This document shows, piece after piece, positions 1,938 to 58,668 of a DNA stretch of 64,000 bases. Every line of letters begins with the position of its first letter. The stretch's first letter is position 1. The stretch comes from Flavobacteriales bacterium 33_180_T64 (GTDB taxonomy: Bacteria; Bacteroidota; Bacteroidia; Flavobacteriales; Flavobacteriaceae), in the NCBI GenBank assembly GCA_002162685.1, contig MAAQ01000018.1, positions 124,001-188,000 of the forward strand, read 5' to 3'. The notes below the pieces were generated by a model that saw nothing but the letters and a program-made list of their open reading frames with translations, was not told the origin of the DNA and did no database searches. Position numbers and translations under genes: made by a program.

Positions 1938-4900
1938 TTATTCTACTTTTATTTTTACACCTTCACTATGACTACTAAACTCTGGAGCATACATACTTTG
2001 AATTGTTGTGATGCCGTTACTCATATGTCCAGCGTTATTAACTCTTAAGTCATACTCAAAAACATAAACTCCTTTTGGTAAATAATCGAAAAAGAAATTA
2101 GTAGAAGCGTCTTTTGTACTTTCATAATAGCCTAAACCATCTTGGTATTTGTATTGTGATAATACATTTATAGGTTCTAATCCTGCAGCACGCATATCTT
2201 TCATGTGAACAAATTCCATAGCACGATCACTTCGTAATTCAATACGAACTCTTACCAAGTCGCCAACTTTTAAATTGGTTTTAGATGTAATTTCAGTAAT
2301 TTGTTCTCCAGTTGCCGTATTGGTTTTTTTGAAGAGTTTTTTCTGTAATTTAAGAGGTGTTTCGGCAGAAGTAATCTTATCTAAATCTTCAAAATATTGC
2401 CAGTATAAACTTCCCCAAGCAATACCATCGCCTTTTTTTGTGAGTTTTACGGTTGCCATGTTTGATAATATTTCAGAAGCAGACCATGACGTTTTATAAT
2501 AGCCTGTACCAGCCTCTGTTTTTACGTTTTCTAATTTTGAAGCTTCAATCTCTTTTCCACCTAAAACCACGTCAACCATATCCGTTACACTTAGCCAATC
2601 ACTTCCTTGTAATAATAAGGCATAGATAGCATCTGTTGTAGCTTTAGTAGTTTGCCAACGGTTGGTTTGCTTGTTTTTAAGTAACCAGATTTTTAGATTA
2701 TCGATAGTTGTGGCATCATTTTCAATTTCAGAAAAAACTTCAATTAATAAGGCTTGTGTTTCTATTGGTGCTTGATACCAATACCATGAGCTGGTATTTT
2801 CTTTCCAGTACATACCTAATTCTTCCGAAGTGATACTCGTTTCACGTAATGACTTTAATATTCTTTCTGATGTTGTTTTGTCATCCATTCTATTAACAAC
2901 TAATGCCATTAGTCCTTTTGCATATAAGGAGCGACTTAACCAATACTTTTGAATTTGAGTTTGGTAATAATCCATAATAGATTGAACCTCTTTTGATGGC
3001 TTGTTATTAGTATAAAAGCTTCGCATATACAAATAATGCAATTGCGTATAACTTAAATGATCTTTAGATAAATCTGCTTTTGGATTATATTTTTTAATGT
3101 CTTTATACTCTTGTATAAATTCTGCATCTAAATAGCTTATAGCTTTAGTTAGCATTTGCGAAGTTTCAGTGCTTGTTACTCCTAGTTTATTAAGATGTCC
3201 AAAGCCTGTAATGATATGCTGTGTGATATAGCGGTTAGGTTGCCCACCATTAAACCATGACCAAGCACCATTTGCCATCTGACCGTTTTTAAGTTTACGT
3301 ATAGCCAATTCTAATTCAGTATTCATTTTGTTTAAATCGAATAATAAAGCAATACGTTTTTTTTGCTCTGTTTCACTTTGCGCATCGCGTAACCATGGGG
3401 TTTCTTGAATTAAAAGCGATTTCAAGTCTTGGTTTTTTTCAAGATTACTCAATAAAGCATCTGTATTTTTCCATTGGTTAAAAACTTCTTGAATTCTCGG
3501 ATTGCTATTCGCAATATGACTTGCTAGTGCATTAGCATAATAACGACTAAAGGTTTGCTCATTACACTCATAAGGATACTCCATCAAATATGGTAAAGCT
3601 TGAACAGCATACCAAGCTGGATTTGATGTAATCTCTAAAGTGAGTTTATGATGCTTAAGTGTTGTTGAGGTATTGGTTTTGAGTTTGTCTAAGGTAAATG
3701 TTCGTGTTTCATTACTCTTAATCCACATTGGTAAGGTTTCGGTGACTAACATTCTATTGCTTAACACAGGTAATGCATTTTGTTCGCCATCGCTAAAATC
3801 TCCTGCTTTCGCTAAAATTTTATACTGAACAGCATCAACATCAAACGGAATATGAAGTGTCCATGAAGCTTGTGTATTTCCTTTAGCATCTACTACAAAT
3901 TGAACGGTTTCCTTTGTTAATGAAATGCCAAGATGCTCAGTGATATCTTTTCCTGAAATAGGATTAGTTAATACTAGCTTTGCTTGTCCAGATAATTGTT
4001 TGTCAGTTAAATTTGCAATTTTTGTGCTGATAGAAATCTGATCCCCTTCGCGTAAAAAACGAGGAGCATTGGGTAGCACCATCAATTCTTTTTGCGTAAC
4101 AGTTTCTAAAGTTGTTGTTCCGCTTTCTAAGGTTTTGGTATGTGCTAATAATTGCAATTTCCATTTGGTTAAGGCTTCAGGAGTTGTGAAATTAAAACTC
4201 ACATTGCCTTCTTCATCCGTTTGTAACTGCGGAAAGAAAAATGCGGTTTCTTGAAGATTCTTACGGATTTTGACATCGTCAAAGTTTTGTTTCTTTGTTT
4301 CTTTGTTTGTAATTTCAGAAACCATGTAACCTCCACTTTGTTCGGTTTTGCTTTTAAAAACTAGAGCTTTTTTATCTTTCATAAAAGCAATTTCCATATC
4401 ATCTTCTCTGACAAAACCAATACTATCATTTTCCATTCTTGGTGCTGCACTTTCTGCAACAACTATGACTTCTTCTAAAACAGCACTATCTTCATTAAGC
4501 GTTATACTATAATAATTGTCATTAGAGATTTTTAGTTCTAAGGCTTTGTAGCCTATATAGCTTACAACTAGAGTTTCACCTTTTTTTACTTTTATTGAAA
4601 ATTTTCCATCAAAATCAGAAGTTGTACCTGTATCTGTTCCTTTGATATTAATATTAACACCTATGAGGAGCTCTCCAAGATTGTCTTTTACAATACCTTG
4701 AACCATTCCTTTGGTTACATGAGATACATTTTTACTAGTATAGGTTGATGGTATAGCTGCATTTAGTCTTCTTAAATACTGTTGTCTTCCGTAATAATAC
4801 TCGCTAAAATAGAGTCCGAATAAATTAAGTTGATCGTAGTTTTGCACAGTATAACTACCATGATTATACTGTGCATTTTCTATTCTAAAAGTATTTGTTC

Positions 4901-49069: not shown

Positions 49070-50377
<1,308 letters not shown>

Positions 50378-50470
50378 GCTTTAATAAAAGTAATTTATTT
50401 TATTTTTTGAATCTGATTGAGATTATTAGATTTAATATATGGTTACCAATATTTTTCAATTAAAGATTCA

Positions 50471-50522
50471 ACTCCTATTATTCATGGTTTTTGTAATAGA
50501 CCATGAATAATAGGAGTAATTT
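50471..50522 (+). terminator. Long perfect hairpin after eno
   Basis: An 18-bp perfect stem (50471-50488 with 50500-50517) has an 11-nt loop. It is followed by AATTTTAG, a weak T tract. It is probably the eno terminator, but the stem is much longer than the others in the window (8-14 bp) and lies 93 bp after the stop codon. Confidence 0.6.
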
Positions 50523-50657
50523 TAGAATGTTTTATGATTTGAATGAATTACTCATTTTATTTTAATATATATTGATGTCTGCAACGGTAAGTAAATTCTG
50601 TACAGCAATTTTTCGTTCAGGGTTTTACCAAACAACACAATGCTATTAGGCAAGTAG

Positions 50658-53222
50658 ATGATTAAATTTCATTCCACATATTTAAAAGTAAGTTTTATTA
50701 TTTTCTTTTTCCTCTGTTCTTTCACCTCTTTAGGGCAGATATCCCATAGTATTAATTATACGCCAAAAGATGGACTTAATAGTTCGCAAGTATATGATAT
50801 AACACAAGATGAAAAAGGACATCTTTGGTTTGCAACAGATCGTGGTATTAGTAAGTTCAATGGCTACGAATTTAAATCTTTTACAACCTTAGATGGACTT
50901 ACAGATAATACTGTTTTTTATTTTTTTCATCAAAAAGATGGAACTATTTGGTGTACAGGGTTAGATAATGAATTGTTTTTTTTTGATACTAACAACTCTT
51001 TTAAACCCTATCCTTTTAATCACATTATTCAAAAGTTCAGGGAAACTAAGTTAACCTATATTATTTCAGAAATACTATTCAACGATGAAAAACTATACAT
51101 TAGTTTTACTGGTTTAAGAGGTTATATTATTATTAATCAAGAAGGTATTCTTACGGATTACACTAATGTAGCTAAAGAGGAGGGTATTAAAATTGTAAAT
51201 GAATGTATTGACTCGATTAACTTTACTTATATATTAAATCTATCTCAGTCTAAGAAGCCAATATTTAAGAAGAGCATCTATTCAGAAATGATTCCTTCTT
51301 CAACAGTAAGTTTATTTGAAACAGCAACAATTAATCAGACAACACTATTTATTAATAATGCTGTGTACTTAGTGAAAAATAATAAAACAACTATTATTAA
51401 TGACACGAAGAATCCTATAAATGTTGGCGTTTATGATAAGTCTCATTTTTGGGTTGGGTATAGACATGGTGGTGGCGCTATTTATGATCTTACTGGAAAA
51501 AAAATCAGACATTTTCTTGAAGGAAAATCAGTAACAAAATTATTTTTGGATCATGAAAAAGGATTATGGATATCGACTTTAGGTTCGGGTGTTTTTTATT
51601 TTAAAGACCCTACAATCATAGTTTATTTGTTTGATAAAATAAAAAGCAACCTCGTTCACAGCCTAACATCAAATCGTGATACTATTTATATTGGATATTA
51701 TAATGGTTATGTTACGAAATGGAATGGTAAGAAGCATTCTATAGTTTATAGTCCTTCAGGAATACCTTCTCCAGCTATTGTTCAATATTACGAACATTTA
51801 AAAGACGTAGTATTTACTTACAATCAAGGACTCTCTTTAGACAATGAAATGCATCCATTGAAGCGGCTTCCGCTTTCTTTGTCTGACAATCTTGATCAGG
51901 AGATTATAATTGGCCAATTCTTTGGCTTTTCTACTATAAAAGAACAGGTTTCCCATATTCCTCTTAATTTTCGTATTAATGATATTTCTAAGAATCCTTT
52001 GGGATATTATCTTGCCACTAATCAAGGGCTTATGGATTATAGAAATGGTGTTTTAAAAGAGTATGAAACCCCTCTATTTAAACATAGAATGGAAGATATT
52101 GATCAAAATAAAGGGACTTATTATGCCGCTTCTTTAGGTGCTGGATTAGTTGTTTTTGATAAAGATACTATCTATAATATCGATGAAAATGATGGTTTGT
52201 ATAGTAATTTAACCTCAGAAGTTGTTGTAGAAAATGATTCGACCCTATGGGTTTGTGGCATTAAAGGGCTTAATCGTATTCTATTAAAAGATCGCTTTAA
52301 TTATTCTATTTCTGGTGTTTCTACATTTGACGGATTGATAAACAATGAAATAACTGATGTTGAAATTAAAAGCGATACCATTTGGGTTGGTACAAAAGAA
52401 GGCCTCTGTGCTATTAGTAAAGATTTTTTTGAAAAGAAAGAAAAATCACAATCTAATTTTTATCTATCTATAAAGAACATCAAAGTAAATGATAAAGAAA
52501 CGACTATAAAAGAATTAAAACATTTGGATTATACCCAAAATAGAATTGAAATTTTATTTCAAGGTATTTCATTTAAACAAAATAAAAACCTTCACTATAG
52601 ATATAAACTTGAAGGTTTGGAACAAAACTGGAATATTACAAAAACTACAAACGCTGTGTACACTTCCATTATTCCAGGGAACTATACTTTAATCTTACAG
52701 GTAAAAGGAATGTATGGAGATTGGAATGCTAATGAGCTTCGTTTTCCTATACGAATTTATCCTCCTTATTATAAGGCATGGTGGTTTATAGTATTAATTA
52801 CTCTTTTTGTAATATTATTGTTATACGGTTTTTTTAAGTATAGAATTCTTTCTTATAATAAAGACATTATACGAGAAATGCTTAGATACGCTTTAAAGCA
52901 ATTAAAACCCAATAAAAATTATTTAGTCTTTAAGGAGAAAGGAAGAGAAATTAAAATGGATACTTCTAATATCTATTATGTAAAAGCAGCAGGAAATTAT
53001 TTAGAACTTTATACCATAAAAGGGAAGTTTACAATTAGAGAAAAAATAAGTAATTTTATTAAGCAAGTCCCAGATGCTTTAGAATTTTTACAAGTTCACC
53101 GCTCATACATTATACGTATTGATAGAATTAGTGAAAAAAATAAACAACATATTGTTGTAAATAACACTGAAATTCCTGTAGGTAATTCTTATAAAGATGC
53201 ATTAAACAACATTCTTTTTTAA
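50658..53222 (+). CDS. Membrane-anchored sensor-regulator: beta-propeller, Y_Y_Y domain, LytTR DNA-binding domain
   Basis: An 854-residue protein. Order: signal or anchor helix (VSFIIFFFLCSFTSLG); two-component-regulator propeller repeats (SSQVYDITQDEKGHLWFATD, GISKFNGYEFKSFTTLDGLT, DHEKGLWISTLGSGVFYFKD, EVVVENDSTLWVCGIKGLNR); Y_Y_Y domain at about 636-700 (LHYRYKLEGLEQNW, IPGNYTLILQVKG); one helix at about 707-729 (WWFIVLITLFVILLLYGFFK); and a LytTR domain at about 757-850 (NIYYVKAAGNYLELYT, LQVHRSYIIRIDRIS). There is no histidine kinase or receiver domain. An extracellular signal is thus expected to act directly on a membrane-tethered transcription factor. Direct-repeat candidate operators begin 12 bp after its stop codon. 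The ligand is unknown. Confidence 0.9.
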   Translation: MIKFHSTYLKVSFIIFFFLCSFTSLGQISHSINYTPKDGLNSSQVYDITQDEKGHLWFATDRGISKFNGYEFKSFTTLDGLTDNTVFYFFHQKDGTIWCTGLDNELFFFDTNNSFKPYPFNHIIQKFRETKLTYIISEILFNDEKLYISFTGLRGYIIINQEGILTDYTNVAKEEGIKIVNECIDSINFTYILNLSQSKKPIFKKSIYSEMIPSSTVSLFETATINQTTLFINNAVYLVKNNKTTIINDTKNPINVGVYDKSHFWVGYRHGGGAIYDLTGKKIRHFLEGKSVTKLFLDHEKGLWISTLGSGVFYFKDPTIIVYLFDKIKSNLVHSLTSNRDTIYIGYYNGYVTKWNGKKHSIVYSPSGIPSPAIVQYYEHLKDVVFTYNQGLSLDNEMHPLKRLPLSLSDNLDQEIIIGQFFGFSTIKEQVSHIPLNFRINDISKNPLGYYLATNQGLMDYRNGVLKEYETPLFKHRMEDIDQNKGTYYAASLGAGLVVFDKDTIYNIDENDGLYSNLTSEVVVENDSTLWVCGIKGLNRILLKDRFNYSISGVSTFDGLINNEITDVEIKSDTIWVGTKEGLCAISKDFFEKKEKSQSNFYLSIKNIKVNDKETTIKELKHLDYTQNRIEILFQGISFKQNKNLHYRYKLEGLEQNWNITKTTNAVYTSIIPGNYTLILQVKGMYGDWNANELRFPIRIYPPYYKAWWFIVLITLFVILLLYGFFKYRILSYNKDIIREMLRYALKQLKPNKNYLVFKEKGREIKMDTSNIYYVKAAGNYLELYTIKGKFTIREKISNFIKQVPDALEFLQVHRSYIIRIDRISEKNKQHIVVNNTEIPVGNSYKDALNNILF

Positions 53223-53234
53223 ATGACTTATGAT

Positions 53235-53264
53235 TCCGTCACTATTTTTAAGTGTATTCGTCAC
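53235..53264 (+). promoter_or_regulatory. Candidate LytTR operator, copy 1
   Basis: TCCGTCAC (53235-53242) and TTCGTCAC (53257-53264) are direct repeats with a 22-bp period, two helical turns. LytTR regulators such as AgrA and ComE bind pairs of direct repeats with this geometry. It begins 12 bp after the stop codon of the LytTR regulator gene. Confidence 0.55.
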
Positions 53265-53304
53265 AAACCACTTATTTTATTTGTGTTCCCCTTTGTTTAT
53301 TGTT

Positions 53305-53312
53305 TAGGTTTG
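53305..53312 (+). promoter_or_regulatory. -7 element TAGGTTTG downstream of operator copy 1
   Basis: TAGGTTTG fits TAnnTTTG. A TTTG at 53280-53283 (21-bp spacer) may be the -33. The distance from the end of the second direct repeat is 40 bp, the same as in copy 2. Confidence 0.55.
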
Positions 53313-53404
53313 AAAATGATTTAACATCATGATATTTAAGGTTTTATAGAAACGCCTTTAGTATGTCAGGTGTTTAATTAATCAAACACTTTCTGTTTTC
53401 TTGG

Positions 53405-53457
53405 GTAATAATTCTAGAACTGCACCTATTTGAATTTAGAGGAGTTTAATGGAGTAA
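53405..53457 (+). repeat. Duplicated 53-bp upstream element, copy 1
   Basis: This copy differs from the one at 54446-54498 at only two adjacent positions (GC against AT). It contains the 8-bp palindrome TTCTAGAA, a TTTG and two GGAGT words 10 bp apart. It lies far (328 bp) from the first lipoprotein gene. Confidence 0.85.
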
Positions 53458-53785
53458 TACGAAAACCTAATCATTAAATAGAGTAAAATAAATTATGAAT
53501 AATAGATCTAATACCAAAAAGGGACAAAGTTATACTATAATATACAGTTTGCTTTTTTAATTAAAATAGATTTTTTTCATAATAAATAATGTTTCAAATA
53601 TTAATGAAATGTATGGTTAGCTACTGTTCTTGATGTGTTTACTCCAAATTGTTTGAAATCATATTATAATGTTTCGCATCAGTATTAAAACCAAAACAGG
53701 GAAGAAAGTATAAACTGTAAACAGTGTAAAAGCCTAAGACACACTAAAATTAAGTAGGCCTAATTTTATAAAAAAATAATAAAAA

Positions 53786-54322
53786 ATGAAAAAAGTAATT
53801 ATATGTATTGTAATAACATCAATAATAATGGTTGGTTGCTCTAAGAACGAAGAAACTTTTCCATTAAATAATTCACAGATATTTGAAAGATTTGCTCAAG
53901 AGGGCAATACTGCTGAAGTGTTGGGGTATTCATTAGCAAATGTTTACCAAGACTATCAAAGTATAAAAAGTTCTGATAAAGAATTTATGGTTAATACGAT
54001 AAACAATACGACTCTAACAGATAATCAAAAGGCTTCTGCTTTATTTTCTAGGACAGGTCTCTCTGCCTATTTAGCTACACTAAGTACATTCAAACAAGAT
54101 GTATCAAATAGTGGAACCTTTTTAGAGCAACAAAATAATGTAAATAGCACCTCAGAGTATTTTAATTCTATTATTCATTTTGAGGAGGACCTTGAAGAGA
54201 TAGACCCATGTACAGTTCAATATATAACATGTATGTATACAATTTCAATAGGATGCATGGGATTTGCACCATGCATGGTAGGGGGTTCAGTTCTTTGCGC
54301 TGTTAATTATTACAATTGCTAA
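53786..54322 (+). CDS. Small lipoprotein with six regularly spaced C-terminal cysteines
   Basis: The 178-residue protein has a type II signal peptide (IICIVITSIIMVGC, then SKNEETF). A helical middle part (QIFERFAQEGNTAEVLGYSL, NNTTLTDNQKASALF) leads to a hydrophobic, Cys-rich tail of 37 residues starting at DPC. Its six Cys are spaced x6, x7, x5, x7, x6, a symmetric pattern, and four of the six follow the form C-M or C-A. I know no family with this tail; three disulfides or a metal site are possible. It lies in the island downstream of the LytTR regulator and upstream of a second Cys-rich lipoprotein. Confidence 0.75.
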   Translation: MKKVIICIVITSIIMVGCSKNEETFPLNNSQIFERFAQEGNTAEVLGYSLANVYQDYQSIKSSDKEFMVNTINNTTLTDNQKASALFSRTGLSAYLATLSTFKQDVSNSGTFLEQQNNVNSTSEYFNSIIHFEEDLEEIDPCTVQYITCMYTISIGCMGFAPCMVGGSVLCAVNYYNC

Positions 54323-54357
54323 CTTCCAATTATACATTATTAACTTAATTTATTGAA

Positions 54358-54382
54358 TTCCTCGAGATCCTATCTCGGGGAA
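54358..54382 (+). terminator. GC-rich hairpin after the first island lipoprotein
   Basis: An 11-bp stem (TTCCTCGAGAT/ATCTCGGGGAA, one T-G wobble, 3-nt loop) lies 35 bp after the stop codon. No clean T tract follows, so it may be a factor-dependent terminator or a transcript-stabilising end. Confidence 0.5.
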
Positions 54383-54445
54383 GTTCATTGTTCTTTATTT
54401 ATAATTAACATCAAGAGTATCTTCATTATTACTTCTGCTTTCTGA

Positions 54446-54498
54446 GTAATAATTCTAGAACTATACCTATTTGAATTTAGAGGAGTTTAATGGAGTAA
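54446..54498 (+). repeat. Duplicated 53-bp upstream element, copy 2
   Basis: It is 51/53 identical to the copy at 53405-53457, and similarity continues less strongly on both sides. It lies 51 bp before the second lipoprotein ATG, the normal place for a promoter. TTTG followed 22 bp later by TAACCTGA is a poor promoter match, as expected if an activator is needed. Confidence 0.85.
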
Positions 54499-54549
54499 CC
54501 TGAAAATCCAACATTAACAAAGAGTAGGGATAATTAAATATTATTTATT

Positions 54550-55041
54550 ATGAAAAAAATTATTATCATTTTATCAGTTTTGTCTATTATCAGTTGCTCC
54601 AATGAAAACGATTCTCTTAAGGATAAGGAGTATTCTATAGAGACCAATACCGGTATAACATATGAAAGAAAGGATGCTGAAAGTACGCGAAGGGCTAAAT
54701 TAAATGAACAATTAACAGATCTATGTCATGGTCAGTTTTTTACGATTATAAATAGTGGGAACTGTGCTGGTGATGTATTTGAACTTTGTTATTGTTGGTA
54801 CGGTGTGTCAACTTGTATTTGTCAATATACAATGGCATATAATCAAGAAGCAATTGAACCTTATGTCAACTTTTTGTCAGAAAATAATTTTAATGATGTT
54901 CAAATAGCATTCAATAATGTCGTTGAATCAATAAATACAGAAGGTTACGATGAGAATGTAATAGTATATAAAAATACAATAGACTCCTTAGAAGGGGAAA
55001 GAAAGCTTATGATTACAAATTGGTTAGAGAATGTAAATTAG
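54550..55041 (+). CDS. Small cysteine-rich lipoprotein
   Basis: A 163-residue protein with a lipoprotein signal (IIIILSVLSIISC, then SNENDSLKDKE). The middle has a compact Cys-rich block: LCHGQFFTIINSGNCAGDVF and ELCYCWYGVSTCICQYTMAY, six Cys in about 40 residues with two CxC pairs. The C-terminal part is helical (EPYVNFLSENNFNDVQIAFN). The sequence is not related to the preceding lipoprotein except in general design. No family is recognised. It follows the second copy of the duplicated upstream element by 51 bp. A degenerate LytTR remnant follows its stop at once. Confidence 0.75.
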   Translation: MKKIIIILSVLSIISCSNENDSLKDKEYSIETNTGITYERKDAESTRRAKLNEQLTDLCHGQFFTIINSGNCAGDVFELCYCWYGVSTCICQYTMAYNQEAIEPYVNFLSENNFNDVQIAFNNVVESINTEGYDENVIVYKNTIDSLEGERKLMITNWLENVN

Positions 55042-55042
55042 A

Positions 55043-55123
55043 AGACTCTATATTATTGTATATAATGCTATGATTTTCATAGGAGATTCACATGAAGAAG
55101 TATTAAATTATATTCTTTTCTAA
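55043..55123 (+). pseudogene. Remnant of a LytTR regulator C-terminus
   Basis: In one frame this stretch reads YIIVYNAMIFIGDSHEEVLN then YILF and a stop. The intact regulator ends HIVVNNTEIPVGNSYKDALN then NILF and a stop: about 11 of 24 positions are identical, with no gaps and the same stop. The 12 bases after the stop and the direct repeats that follow are also shared. It therefore looks like the 3' end of a lost second regulator gene, cut off at the end of the lipoprotein gene. It is too short to be functional. Confidence 0.6.
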
Positions 55124-55135
55124 ACAACTTAAAAT

Positions 55136-55165
55136 TTCGTCACTATTTTCAAGTGTGTTCGTCAC
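55136..55165 (+). promoter_or_regulatory. Candidate LytTR operator, copy 2
   Basis: TTCGTCAC occurs twice (55136-55143 and 55158-55165), exact direct repeats with a 22-bp period. The position relative to the upstream stop (12 bp) and to the downstream TAGGTTTG (40 bp) is the same as in copy 1. Confidence 0.6.
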
Positions 55166-55205
55166 AAATCCCTTATTTCCTTATTATTACCGTTTGTTTA
55201 TTGTT

Positions 55206-55244
55206 TAGGTTTGAAAATGAGTTCTCTTTCTTAGGAGAGCTCAT
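55206..55244 (+). promoter_or_regulatory. -7 element TAGGTTTG and leader hairpin of the T9SS gene
   Basis: TAGGTTTG (55206-55213) is a good -7, but no TTTG is found at -33, which suggests dependence on an activator. A hairpin with 10-bp arms (55217-55226 and 55235-55244, one wobble) lies directly at the predicted start of the transcript, 94 bp before the gene. Confidence 0.55.
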
Positions 55245-55337
55245 TCTGTAAAAAAAACTAAAAAAAATGATAGAATTGACAGCAATTTAATTCTTCATTA
55301 AAATCATAACAACTTAAAAAATTAAAACAAAACACAA

Positions 55338-56654
55338 ATGAAAAAAATTACTTTACTATTTATCTTATGTATCATTTCAGTCTCTCTGTCTTACAGTCAA
55401 TGTACAGACTCAACTATTCAATGGCCTACAGGTATTGTAACTGTTTTGGAGGTTTCTGGTGCACAAACTATATCTAATGATAATTGGCCTGATAACGAAT
55501 TTTCTTTACTAACGGGATTAGTTATAGGTGAATCTTATACTATCTCTACAAACTTAACAACCTATATAACAGTTACTGAACCTGATGGAATGACAATCAT
55601 TACACATGGATTAGATTCTGTTTCATTTACTGCAACTACGACAGACATCGTTTGTTATTGGACCTTAGATTCGCTTTGTAACACCCAAAATAATAGAGAT
55701 ACTATTACTCAAATTGAATGTACTACTTGTAATGCATGTACAGCAACAGCAACTCCTGATGCTGTAATAGAACCAACTCCTGCTAATATGTCTATAGACA
55801 TTGCTATAACCGGAATTACTATTACACCTTTTTCTTGGATAGAAGATACGGTTAACCCAGCAGATAGTTTTAATCTAAGTATTGGCCTAACTACAACTGG
55901 AGATGATATTGGTACTGTTTTTGATTTTGCAAATGGAAATGGACTTAATTATACTTGGGCATATAATACGACTTATTACTGGAAAGTTGAATCAGTAAAT
56001 TGTATGGGGTCTACGACGAGTGCTGTTTGGAGTTTTACGACTACTTCATGTACAGCAACAGCTAGTCCAGATTTAGCTGTAAGTCCTATGCCTGCTGATA
56101 GTGCTATTAACATCCCGATAAACGATGTTTTTGATCCAGGAAATTTAGTAGTTGGGCCATTTTCATGGACAGAAGCTATTACAGGGGATTTAGCCAATAG
56201 TTATAATTTAAGCCTTGGTTTAACGACTTCCGGAGATGATTTAGGTGTTATTACTGGAGCTACAAATGGTAATTATCTAACCTTTACTTGGGCTTATGAT
56301 ACTACTTATTATTGGAAAGTTGATGCTGTAAATTGTTTTGGAACAGCTACCGGGACAGTTTGGAGTTTTACAACGGAAGCAAATCCTACTTTATCAATCA
56401 CTGAGTTTAATACAGATAAATTTAGTGTTTATCCAAATCCTGCAGAGTCATTTGTAATTATAAAAAATATATCGCCATACAAACTAGAAAATGTAAGCTT
56501 ATATGATATAAGGGGAAGTCATATAAAGACATACAAACTAAACAATAACCTTGAAGTTAATCAGATATATGTATCTAATTTACAGGTTGGTGTATATGTA
56601 TTTGTAATACAAACTGAACAAGGACAGCTTATAAAAAGATTGGTAAAAGAATAG
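55338..56654 (+). CDS. T9SS-exported protein with two FN3-like repeats
   Basis: A 438-residue protein with a signal peptide (ITLLFILCIISVSLSYS-Q). An N-terminal domain of about 110 residues is followed by two homologous repeats at about 134-237 and 238-345. Both begin CTATA(T/S)P, contain FNLSIGLTTTGDDIG or YNLSLGLTTSGDDLG, and end TYYWKV, a Cys, then VWSFTT. This is the FN3-like or Ig-like repeat of flavobacterial surface proteins. The last 75 residues (FSVYPNPAESFVIIKN, GVYVFVIQTEQGQLIKRLVK) are a type A T9SS sorting domain, so it should be secreted or attached to the surface. It is the gene directly downstream of candidate LytTR operator copy 2, and I infer it is a target of that regulator. 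Confidence 0.82.
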   Translation: MKKITLLFILCIISVSLSYSQCTDSTIQWPTGIVTVLEVSGAQTISNDNWPDNEFSLLTGLVIGESYTISTNLTTYITVTEPDGMTIITHGLDSVSFTATTTDIVCYWTLDSLCNTQNNRDTITQIECTTCNACTATATPDAVIEPTPANMSIDIAITGITITPFSWIEDTVNPADSFNLSIGLTTTGDDIGTVFDFANGNGLNYTWAYNTTYYWKVESVNCMGSTTSAVWSFTTTSCTATASPDLAVSPMPADSAINIPINDVFDPGNLVVGPFSWTEAITGDLANSYNLSLGLTTSGDDLGVITGATNGNYLTFTWAYDTTYYWKVDAVNCFGTATGTVWSFTTEANPTLSITEFNTDKFSVYPNPAESFVIIKNISPYKLENVSLYDIRGSHIKTYKLNNNLEVNQIYVSNLQVGVYVFVIQTEQGQLIKRLVKE

Positions 56655-56695
56655 TATTCATTCTTAAATCATATTCTAAAGAAAGCGAAATATAT

Positions 56696-56857
56696 ATGTC
56701 AAGAGGTGCATGGAATAATCATGCTTTTTTAACCGAATCTATTAAAGGAATTTTAGTGTTAGGAGTCTTTTTTAATCATGAAGAGTTTTATCCTAATCAT
56801 CCTGATGTGAGAAAAACAAGTAAGCGAGTTATAGATTTCATAATAAAGCGTATATGA
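56696..56857 (+). CDS. Possible 53-residue protein, unknown
   Basis: This open frame (MSRGAWNNHAFLTESIKGIL, then NHEEFYPNHPDVRKTSKRVI and a basic end IIKRI) starts 41 bp after the T9SS gene. Composition is protein-like, with a hydrophobic segment ILVLGVFF and a basic C-terminus. No family, signal or operon evidence supports it, and it may be a fragment of a larger lost gene. Confidence 0.3.
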   Translation: MSRGAWNNHAFLTESIKGILVLGVFFNHEEFYPNHPDVRKTSKRVIDFIIKRI

Positions 56858-56917
56858 TTTTAAAAAGATCTACCTATGAAGAGATTACAACGCCTTCATA
56901 ATTAGAAAGCAATAGCG

Positions 56918-57112
56918 ATGAGCGTCTTCAATTATGGAGGCTATAGAATAGAAATAAATCTTGAAAATGAATCTAATACACGTATGTATGCGTTTCAAAT
57001 AAAGGCGAATAAAATTGTTTTAATACCACAACAAGATAGAACTAAAAATACAGAACCAACTCGATTAATTGAAGGTTGGAATGATTACTTCTGGTTGAAA
57101 TTTAAAGAATAG
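56918..57112 (+). CDS. Small protein of unknown function
   Basis: The 64-residue product (MSVFNYGGYRIEINLENESN, KANKIVLIPQQDRTKNTEPT, then RLIEGWNDYFWLKFKE) looks like a compact beta-rich domain without signal or membrane segment. It is the last frame of the island, before a strong terminator and gltA. No family is recognised. The protein-like composition and the terminator downstream favour a real gene. Confidence 0.45.
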   Translation: MSVFNYGGYRIEINLENESNTRMYAFQIKANKIVLIPQQDRTKNTEPTRLIEGWNDYFWLKFKE

Positions 57113-57217
57113 TATATGAGCACTTATAGAATATAACAATAACAAAATATTTAGTTAATAGGAATATCAATAATTTATAAGGATAGAAGAGTACCTTTTT
57201 ATGCTAGTTTTTGTTAT

Positions 57218-57254
57218 GAGCGCTTGAAATATTTATTTTAAGCGTTCTGTTTTT
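57218..57254 (+). terminator. Terminator at the end of the island
   Basis: A 12-bp stem with two wobbles (57218-57229 with 57236-57247) and a 6-nt loop is followed by TGTTTTT. It isolates the island from gltA. Confidence 0.8.
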
Positions 57255-57381
57255 AATATCAATTCTATCAATATCAAAATTCATAAATCCTTTGTCATTT
57301 GACTTTATAAATCCTTAGATATTTCGTAATTTCGTGACGTCTCATACGACTAACATTCTAAATAAAATTTTCAAATATAAT

Positions 57382-58668
57382 ATGTCAGATAAAGCTACAC
57401 TAGAAATTAATGGTCAAAAACACGAATTCCCATTAGTTAAAGGTACAGAAAACGAAGTTGCAATAGATATAAAAACACTAAGAGGTGTTACTGGAGGTGT
57501 GACTACAATTGATCCAGGATATAAAAATACAGGTTCTTGTGAAAGTGCAATTACGTTTTTAGATGGAGAGAAAGGAATCTTAAGATACAGAGGATATTCT
57601 ATTGAAGAATTAGCAGAAAAAGCAGATTTTTTAGAAGTTGCATATCTTTTAATTTTTGGAGAATTACCAACTCAAGAAGAATTAGAGAAATTTCACTCAG
57701 ATATTAAGATGCATGCTGTTGTTGATGATGATATTAAGAAAATATTAGATGCTTTTCCGAAAACGGCACATCCAATGGGTGTTTTAGCATCATTAACAAG
57801 TGCATTAACAGCTTTCAATCCTTCATCTGTAAATGTAGATTCTGAGGAAGAAATGTACAATGCTATTGTTAGAATATTAGGTAAATTCCCAATATTAGTT
57901 GCTTGGACAATGCGTAAGAAAAAAGGATTACCATTAGATTATGGAAGCACATCTTTAGGTTATGTGGAGAACATTTTACAAATGATGTTTAAACGCCCAA
58001 ATGAAGATTACGTTCAAAATCCAATTTTAGTAAATGCTTTAGATAAATTATTAATTCTTCATGCCGATCATGAACAAAACTGTTCAACGTCTACTGTAAG
58101 AATAACAGGTTCATCTCATGCTGGATTATTTGTGTCATTATCAGCCGGTATTTCTGCGCTTTGGGGACCATTACATGGTGGAGCTAACCAAGCTGTACTA
58201 GAAATGCTAGAAGGGATTAAAGATGATGGTGGTGACACTAAAAAATATATGGCAAAAGCCAAAGATAAGAATGATCCTTTCCGCTTAATGGGCTTTGGGC
58301 ATCGTGTGTATAAAAACTTTGACCCAAGAGCAAAAATCATTAAAGTTGCAGCTGATGAAGTTTTAGGAGATTTAGGTGTTGATGATCCAATTTTAGGAAT
58401 CGCTAAAGGTTTAGAACAAGAAGCTTTAGAAGATGCATACTTTGTAGATAGAAAATTATATCCTAATGTAGATTTTTACTCAGGTATTATTTATAGAGCT
58501 ATGGGTATTCCTACTGAAATGTTTACAGTAATGTTTGCTTTAGGGCGTTTACCAGGTTGGATAGCTCAATGGAAAGAAATGCGTATGCGTAAAGAACCAA
58601 TTGGTCGTCCACGTCAATTATATATTGGTGAGACCTACAGACCATTTAAAGATATTAGTAAAAGATAG
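57382..58668 (+). CDS. gltA: Citrate synthase
   Basis: The 428-residue enzyme condenses acetyl-CoA and oxaloacetate. It has LRGVTGGVTTIDPGYKNTGS near the N-terminus, the catalytic His in HADHEQNCSTSTVRITGSSH, GPLHGGANQAVLEMLEGI, the second His in LMGFGHRVYKNFDPRAK, and the Asp in PNVDFYSGIIYRAMG. The length matches the hexameric bacterial type. A GTG at 57334 is in frame but would add 16 residues absent from the family, so the ATG before SDKATLEINGQ is used. A terminator separates it from the island upstream, and another follows. Confidence 0.97.
   Translation: MSDKATLEINGQKHEFPLVKGTENEVAIDIKTLRGVTGGVTTIDPGYKNTGSCESAITFLDGEKGILRYRGYSIEELAEKADFLEVAYLLIFGELPTQEELEKFHSDIKMHAVVDDDIKKILDAFPKTAHPMGVLASLTSALTAFNPSSVNVDSEEEMYNAIVRILGKFPILVAWTMRKKKGLPLDYGSTSLGYVENILQMMFKRPNEDYVQNPILVNALDKLLILHADHEQNCSTSTVRITGSSHAGLFVSLSAGISALWGPLHGGANQAVLEMLEGIKDDGGDTKKYMAKAKDKNDPFRLMGFGHRVYKNFDPRAKIIKVAADEVLGDLGVDDPILGIAKGLEQEALEDAYFVDRKLYPNVDFYSGIIYRAMGIPTEMFTVMFALGRLPGWIAQWKEMRMRKEPIGRPRQLYIGETYRPFKDISKR

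Follow-up and report, generated by a model that had tools for sequence, protein, structure and literature searches.

The two pairs of direct repeats found in the window, as we call the whole 64,000-nucleotide stretch of DNA analyzed here, are very probably a dedicated operator of the LytTR regulator encoded beside them, a one-component membrane protein that, as far as can be judged from sequence, probably activates neighboring genes for secreted cargo. The initial annotation had read the repeats as LytTR operators, and this reading is borne out by their conservation beside homologous regulators, by the restriction of strong matches to genomes carrying such a regulator, and by a distance of 38 to 40 bp to TAnnTTTG, the consensus of the Bacteroidota -7 element. 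A concrete operator, regulator, and promoter geometry is thus available for a Bacteroidota membrane LytTR class tied to secreted or surface cargo. The word, the period, and the spacing to the -7 element vary so little that sequence alone allows the targets of many homologues to be identified.

We propose that the periplasmic propeller and Y_Y_Y part of the regulator would sense a signal and that the cytoplasmic LytTR domain would bind two TTCGTCAC half-sites, 22 bp apart and head-to-tail on one helix face, the proximal one centered about 55 to 60 bp ahead of the presumed start point. From an operator upstream of the -33 region, the regulator would then aid RNA polymerase at the TAnnTTTG promoter. 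Two transcripts are predicted for the window: operator 1 would drive one for lipoproteins, and operator 2 would drive one for a type IX secreted protein.

Paired repeats and promoter elements in the window

The pattern CGTCAC-N16-CGTCAC occurs with 0 mismatches at 53237 and 55138 (Table 1), and at operator 1 and operator 2 alike a TAA stop ends 12 bases ahead of the first repeat. Re-reading the sequence upheld the coordinates first reported for these elements, together with the 22-bp period, the 40-bp spacing to TAGGTTTG, and the stop 12 bp upstream. In a scan of the 3.75-Mb genome that tolerated one mismatch, no further place turned up, and the pair pattern read backwards had 0 matches there. 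With up to two mismatches allowed, 10 of 100 shuffles of the window reach two matches; this loose pattern is weak evidence by itself. By eye, the -33 region shows no clear common box at these promoters, and an Rfam scan of 50300-57400 gave no match at either operator.

Table 1. Coordinates of the operators, promoter elements, and predicted proteins of the locus in the window
Feature	Position	Strand	Remarks
Operator 1	TCCGTCAC 53235-53242, N14, TTCGTCAC 53257-53264	+	Period 22; toward target = TTCGTCAC
Operator 2	TTCGTCAC 55136-55143, N14, TTCGTCAC 55158-55165	+	Period 22
-7 element, promoter 1	TAGGTTTG 53305-53312	+	40 bp past operator 1
-7 element, promoter 2	TAGGTTTG 55206-55213	+	40 bp past operator 2
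854-aa regulator	50658-53222	+	Reg_prop propeller, Y_Y_Y, one predicted transmembrane segment, C-terminal LytTR
178-aa predicted lipoprotein	53786-54322	+	First ORF of at least 80 aa past promoter 1; leader about 470 nt; lipobox-like ...VGCSK start (by eye); no Pfam family
163-aa predicted lipoprotein	54550-55041	+	Next ORF; lipobox-like ...ISCSN start (by eye); no Pfam family
438-aa type IX secretion cargo	55338-56654	+	First ORF of at least 80 aa past promoter 2; Por_Secre_tail 1.9e-11
Relic of the regulator's last 24 codons	55052-55123	+	52/74 identical over 53149-53222 / 55050-55123

The two sites had been taken for independent matches. They are in fact halves of one 174-nt duplication (53149-53322 / 55050-55223, 78% identical) that contains both operators; therefore, the two places count once. 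The duplication starts within the last codons of the regulator, and the likeness ends about 10 bases past the -7 element, beyond which 13/50 positions are identical. Between the copies, identity amounts to 27/30 in the operator, 8/8 in TAGGTTTG, 31/40 in the intervening stretch, and 52/74 in the coding tail. Of the LytTR frame stops reported ahead of both operators, the one at 53222 stands, and the other belongs to a relic whose translation reads IIVYNAMIFIGDSHEEVLNYILF against IVVNNTEIPVGNSYKDALNNILF, each followed by a stop. Operator 2 would have arisen when the 3' end of the regulator gene, the operator, and the promoter were duplicated.

Architecture of the regulator and its locus

Pfam matches of the regulator comprise LytTR (2.2e-14; residues 765-853), Y_Y_Y (1.4e-13), and Reg_prop (4.6e-12). 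Its hydropathy peaks at residues 11 and 708: the N terminus is a probable signal peptide, and the profile predicts one membrane pass at about residues 708-726, with the sensor outside and the LytTR domain inside. The LytTR domain carries the motif FLQVHRS, in which Q replaces the R of the FhRhHRS type that marks the family; VHRSY aligns with the homologues, many of which read FLRVHRS or YLRVHRS. The other mark of LytTR systems, a pair of direct repeats of about 9 bp with a period of about 21 to 22 just upstream of a promoter, is present as well. There are 27 LytTR domains in this genome, that is, 26 besides the regulator. All nine homologues scanned have LytTR and Y_Y_Y, and eight of the nine have Reg_prop above the cut-off; the exception, L110, has a shortened ORF.

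In 15 of the 21 genus relatives examined, gltA and eno are no more than 1.5 kb apart, and in the other six gltA was not seen near eno within the available stretch. In the window, the two genes stand about 7 kb apart, with the regulator and its cargo between them (50378-57333), probably as the result of a lineage-specific insertion of that size. Among the 23 genomes of the genus, the only other near relative of the regulator is a truncated copy (G309), which has no operator site. When named genomes were searched with the whole regulator, a single distant relative came up (L037; 23% identity), which was left out of further comparison.

Conservation of the operator beside homologous regulators

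We searched 397 genomes of the family and defined carriers by a homologue at E 4e-55 or better. There are 16 carriers, including the genome of the window, and 16 further loci in 15 genomes, all of which were taken for flank reading. G248 and weaker matches, as well as G940:C28, were excluded as lacking the LytTR part or falling well below in score. A near-full regulator aligned at 15/16 loci, and at L105 it aligned in two pieces. The element recurs in the flanks of the homologues, in many cases where the regulator and a neighboring gene diverge: the motif is present at 13/16 or better at 11 of the 16 loci and at 12/16 at three more (L103, L111, and L113), and the flanks of the remaining two (L098 and L112) hold no site. 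Of the GTGACGAA pairs of at least 13/16 within 400-bp flanks, 13 have period 21, 11 have period 22, and 23 are spread over the other 50 periods; the 24 pairs at 21/22 compare with 0.10 in shuffles (maximum, 2). The operator word takes the forms TTCGTCAC, TTCGTCCC, and TTCGCCAC.

The outcome had looked negative when 299 genomes of the family were scanned for two exact CGTCAC words 22 bp apart. Seven genomes matched, including that of the window; the six others all fall outside the carriers, and the exact pattern read backwards matched in 26 of the 299. This result follows from the fixed 22-bp period and the exact word, since the homologue flanks show period 21 and changed letters.

Held-out homologues, unused in defining the word, were drawn from the order (395 genomes) and the class (237 genomes). 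They comprise 13 regulator genes from nine genomes and six families, one of which is the family of the window. Here, period 21/22 accounts for six pairs of at least 13/16, where shuffles give 0.07 (maximum, 1), and all 50 other periods combined account for 14. Lowering the threshold to 12/16 raises these counts to 11, where shuffles give 0.80, and 54. Nine of the 13 genes have at least one pair at 12/16 or better, although a lone 12/16 pair is weak evidence; no site was found at the other four (the first copy of L150, L153, L165, and L167). Perfect 16/16 pairs occur in G940 and G419, both outside the family of the window. Some of these loci need care: L153 (G471) has an apparent split frame and a guessed flank stop, with no site across its 12 kb; the gene start was guessed for the flank of L152; and L168 has masked bases within and near its first regulator.

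We also counted direct repeats in the flanks of both sets without reference to any word. With 11-base repeats, periods 21 and 22 lead all others: with up to one mismatch they occur in seven and three flanks, respectively, against a mean of 0.15 over 47 other periods, and with two mismatches in 12 and nine, against 1.72. Repeats of 14 bases with 11 matches gave 11 flanks at period 21 and four at period 22, against 1.13; period 15 also gave four.

Distance to the promoter element and orientation

At 10 target-type and 10 regulator-type sites picked by hand, we measured the gap between the proximal repeat and TAnnTTTG. With at least 5/6 letters, the element lies at 39 bp in 8/10 target-type sites of the first set and at 40 bp in 2/10, and it is exact in four. 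Among held-out target-type sites, it is exact at 40 bp in 5/9. At regulator promoters, it is exact at 38 bp in 7/10 and at 47 bp in two. As background, an exact TAnnTTTG stands at 2 of 2088 other positions of the same stretches. The two pairs of L100, placed in neither group, lack a TAnnTTTG within 75 bp. A separate count of seven pairs at L103, L111, and L113, where the words are divergent, gave an exact element at 39 bp in two, one at L111 and one at L113.

Toward target genes the repeats read TTCGTCAC, and toward the regulator's own gene they read GTGACGAA. In divergent regions with both operator types, the two are 100 to 101 bp apart in six of seven loci and 110 bp apart in the seventh, an arrangement that may reflect DNA looping. 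The seven loci are L099, L101, L102, L104, L105, L108, and L110. The window has sites of the target type only, and no site lies upstream of its own regulator gene. A rule assigning period 22 to targets and period 21 to regulator promoters fitted the sites of the model described below and was dropped after failing at the held-out loci L150, L151, and L152, where the period is 21.

Genome-wide distribution

A sequence-only model was built from 21 of 31 listed pairs, leaving out one pair identical to another and nine of odd period, overlapping, gene-distant, or weaker (L100, L105, three of L107, L108, L113, and two of the window). The genome search scored 16 first-look candidates per genome under strict filters. 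Over the 397 genomes, it gave 22 matches of at least 27.4 bits, all adjoining a regulator, in 12 of the 16 carriers; the regulators of L103, L111, L112, and L113 were missed. The best match in the 381 noncarriers reaches 22.0 bits. Matches in carriers occur by construction, the model having been trained there, but the silence of noncarriers does not. No carrier has a match of at least 27 bits away from the regulator; therefore, from sequence comparison, the motif looks like a local, dedicated operator without a genome-wide regulon.

When the model was run on the nine held-out carrier genomes (E 0.05), four gave matches and five gave none. The top match adjoins the regulator in G940 (34.8 bits), G419 (23.9 bits), and G460 (17.2 bits, weak). 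G485 has three matches (19.8 to 20.7 bits), all on the contig of the regulator within about 18 kb; one lies a few hundred bases upstream of the regulator, and the top match is about 15 kb off. These three matches, at L152 and G485:C20:71036-89381, surround a single regulator and hence perhaps mark a small local regulon.

As a control, we examined this genome's 26 remaining LytTR loci, which gave three pairs (13/16) at period 21/22 and five at 50 other periods. Two of the three are at L031, a LytS/LytT-type pair, and look like a related operator. There, at 3025-3090 (own genome, C18), three related words, GTTGACAAA, GTGACAAA, and TTTACGAA, stand at 21- and 22-bp spacing upstream of the kinase/regulator pair.

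Comparison with known regulators

SusR-like regulators of Bacteroidota unite a periplasmic sensor, a membrane pass, and a cytoplasmic DNA-binding domain in one chain, have a helix-turn-helix output, and belong to polysaccharide loci. The regulator of the window has the Reg_prop and Y_Y_Y domains, membrane pass, and DNA-binding domain of this group in the same order, its membrane sides being predicted, and differs in its LytTR output and its surface or secreted cargo. No SusC/SusD-type family was found among the four window proteins scanned with Pfam.

LytTR response regulators of the AgrA/ComE type have a receiver domain and a separate kinase. The protein had been likened to these, a comparison that fails: we found neither a receiver nor a kinase among the Pfam matches of its 854 residues, the neighboring ORFs encode enolase and lipoprotein-like proteins, and it appears as a membrane-anchored one-component protein. 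What it shares with them, from the available part of PMC4227749, is two direct repeats upstream of weak promoters; the proximal repeat is centered near -60 for AgrA and at an estimated -55 to -60 in the window.

The nearest precedent that we found is a set of LRS-like operons in two Bacteroides species, described, in the portion of PMC6193735 available, as having predicted membrane LytTR proteins, 11-bp repeats with an 11-bp gap, and a promoter TGTA-19-TATCTTTG lying 11 bp beyond the repeats. There, Bacteroidota LytTR repeats of period 22 had thus been predicted already, and a membrane-spanning LytTR regulator is likewise shared with the window. By our own arithmetic, the 11-bp repeat lies 34 bp from the -7 element in Bacteroides and 36 to 37 bp from it here. 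The half-site words TCCGGTATTCA/ACCGGAAATCA are unlike TTCGTCAC; the Bacteroides LytTR proteins have several membrane segments, with no propeller mentioned in that portion, whereas the window regulator has one predicted segment and a propeller; and the LRS operons have a separate NfeD/DUF2154 membrane protein (PMC6193735), whereas the sensor is fused here. By eye, none of the four ORFs of at least 80 aa in 50378-57333 encodes a multi-pass protein that could be a separate membrane inhibitor of the LRS type.

CoxC of Afipia carboxidovorans, an MHYT-LytTR membrane one-component repressor in the available part of PMC11347149, shares the membrane-bound one-component LytTR design and a direct-repeat operator with repeats about two turns apart. 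It differs in its MHYT gas sensor, its three repeats TTNNNGCN overlapping the -35 box, and its action as a repressor; the window protein has Reg_prop, Y_Y_Y, and one predicted membrane segment in place of the MHYT fusion that marks the CoxC subfamily. As far as the available parts of these papers go, published LytTR sites match those described here in period, repeat length, and placement upstream of -35/-33 (PMC6193735, PMC11347149, PMC4227749). Among the open-licence papers listed by our literature searches, no title or abstract opening gives an account of this propeller-LytTR regulator class, its operator, or its target.

Alternative explanations

CoxC is also the precedent for the main rival, in which the same protein and operator act in repression relieved by a signal, since it shows that a membrane one-component LytTR protein can repress (PMC11347149, part available). 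Yet CoxC sites overlap the -35 box, whereas the proximal repeat here ends 39 to 40 bp before the -7 element, upstream of -33, the usual place of an activator, and we consider repression unlikely. A different cell regulator, such as one of the 26 remaining LytTR proteins, might bind the operator and leave the membrane protein as a mere neighbor. The 27 LytTR domains of the genome provide candidates, among them the L031 pair with its related TTTGTCAC words upstream at 21/22 spacing. However, nothing exceeds 22.0 bits in the 381 genomes in which no membrane regulator was found, and the best match adjoins the membrane regulator in the held-out G940 and G419, from other families, which makes such a binder quite improbable.

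The words could instead act at the RNA level or as a recombination site for cargo exchange behind the regulator, as the differing cargo and the edges of the window duplication, which fall at the regulator tail and the promoter, might suggest; but a fixed 38 to 40 bp to the promoter element, upstream of the presumed start and at both kinds of promoter, fits DNA binding, and there is very little chance that this explanation is right. Even less credence is due to the repeats being an inert by-product of local duplication. Both window copies do lie within one 174-nt duplication, but homologues from other families are accompanied by the same motif and spacing to TAnnTTTG, which contradicts this idea, and the operator and -7 element are better kept than the coding relic. 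Counting against the preferred reading, a dedicated activator operator, are the loci without a site (upstream of the window's own regulator, L098 and L112, and 4/13 held-out genes) and the opposite sense in which the operators at regulator promoters read relative to target-type ones.

Cargo behind the operators

Cargo varies from locus to locus. The first genes behind target-type sites encode proteins with a type IX sorting tail in the window, at L103, at L109, and at L168 (two); at L111 the tail is in the second gene, and at L104, L110, L105, and L163 it falls below the cut-off. The cargo of L108 resembles that of L104 by eye. Lipoprotein-like starts were recognized by eye in the window and at L099, L102, L106, and L151. 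L107 and L113 have tandem short peptides behind the operator, two at L107 (5809-6198) and three at L113 (5816-6906), most with a double-glycine-type leader; their matches to the class I lanthipeptide leader (15.2 bits, cut-off 22) and to a bacteriocin signal (14.7 bits, cut-off 15.7) are weak and fall below threshold. At L165, type IX cargo adjoins the regulator, and no operator was found there; L164 is an exception, as its next protein has tetratricopeptide-like repeats by eye. The survey leaves out L101, L150, L152, L166, and L169.

More tentatively, and with rather more doubt than confidence, these loci may belong to a family of regulators spread across Bacteroidia, all of them one-component membrane LytTR proteins that have an operator of their own and are followed by exchangeable, unrelated secreted cargo. 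This cargo would comprise surface proteins of the LRR, cadherin, PKD, Kelch, or laminin-G type as well as small lipoproteins; in two genomes it would consist of double-glycine-leader peptides, arranged in tandem, that resemble bacteriocins or pheromones. Such movable cassettes, represented in this genome by the insertion of about 7 kb between eno and gltA, would be a Gram-negative counterpart of the Gram-positive LytTR switches of bacteriocin production and competence.

Some further features were seen around the lipoprotein genes of the window. The 178-aa lipoprotein (53786-54322) has a cysteine-rich stretch at its end. An 84-nt leader (53402-53485 / 54443-54526, 83% identical) is repeated ahead of both lipoprotein genes, and its second copy overlaps a match to the Rfam DUF805b cis-regulatory RNA (54490-54530; 32.7 bits, cut-off 35.6, E 2.4e-6). 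Finally, a 25-nt inverted repeat (53570-53594 / 54536-54560, 96% identical) places the start of the second lipoprotein gene, reversed, within the leader of the first and is perhaps a rearrangement scar.
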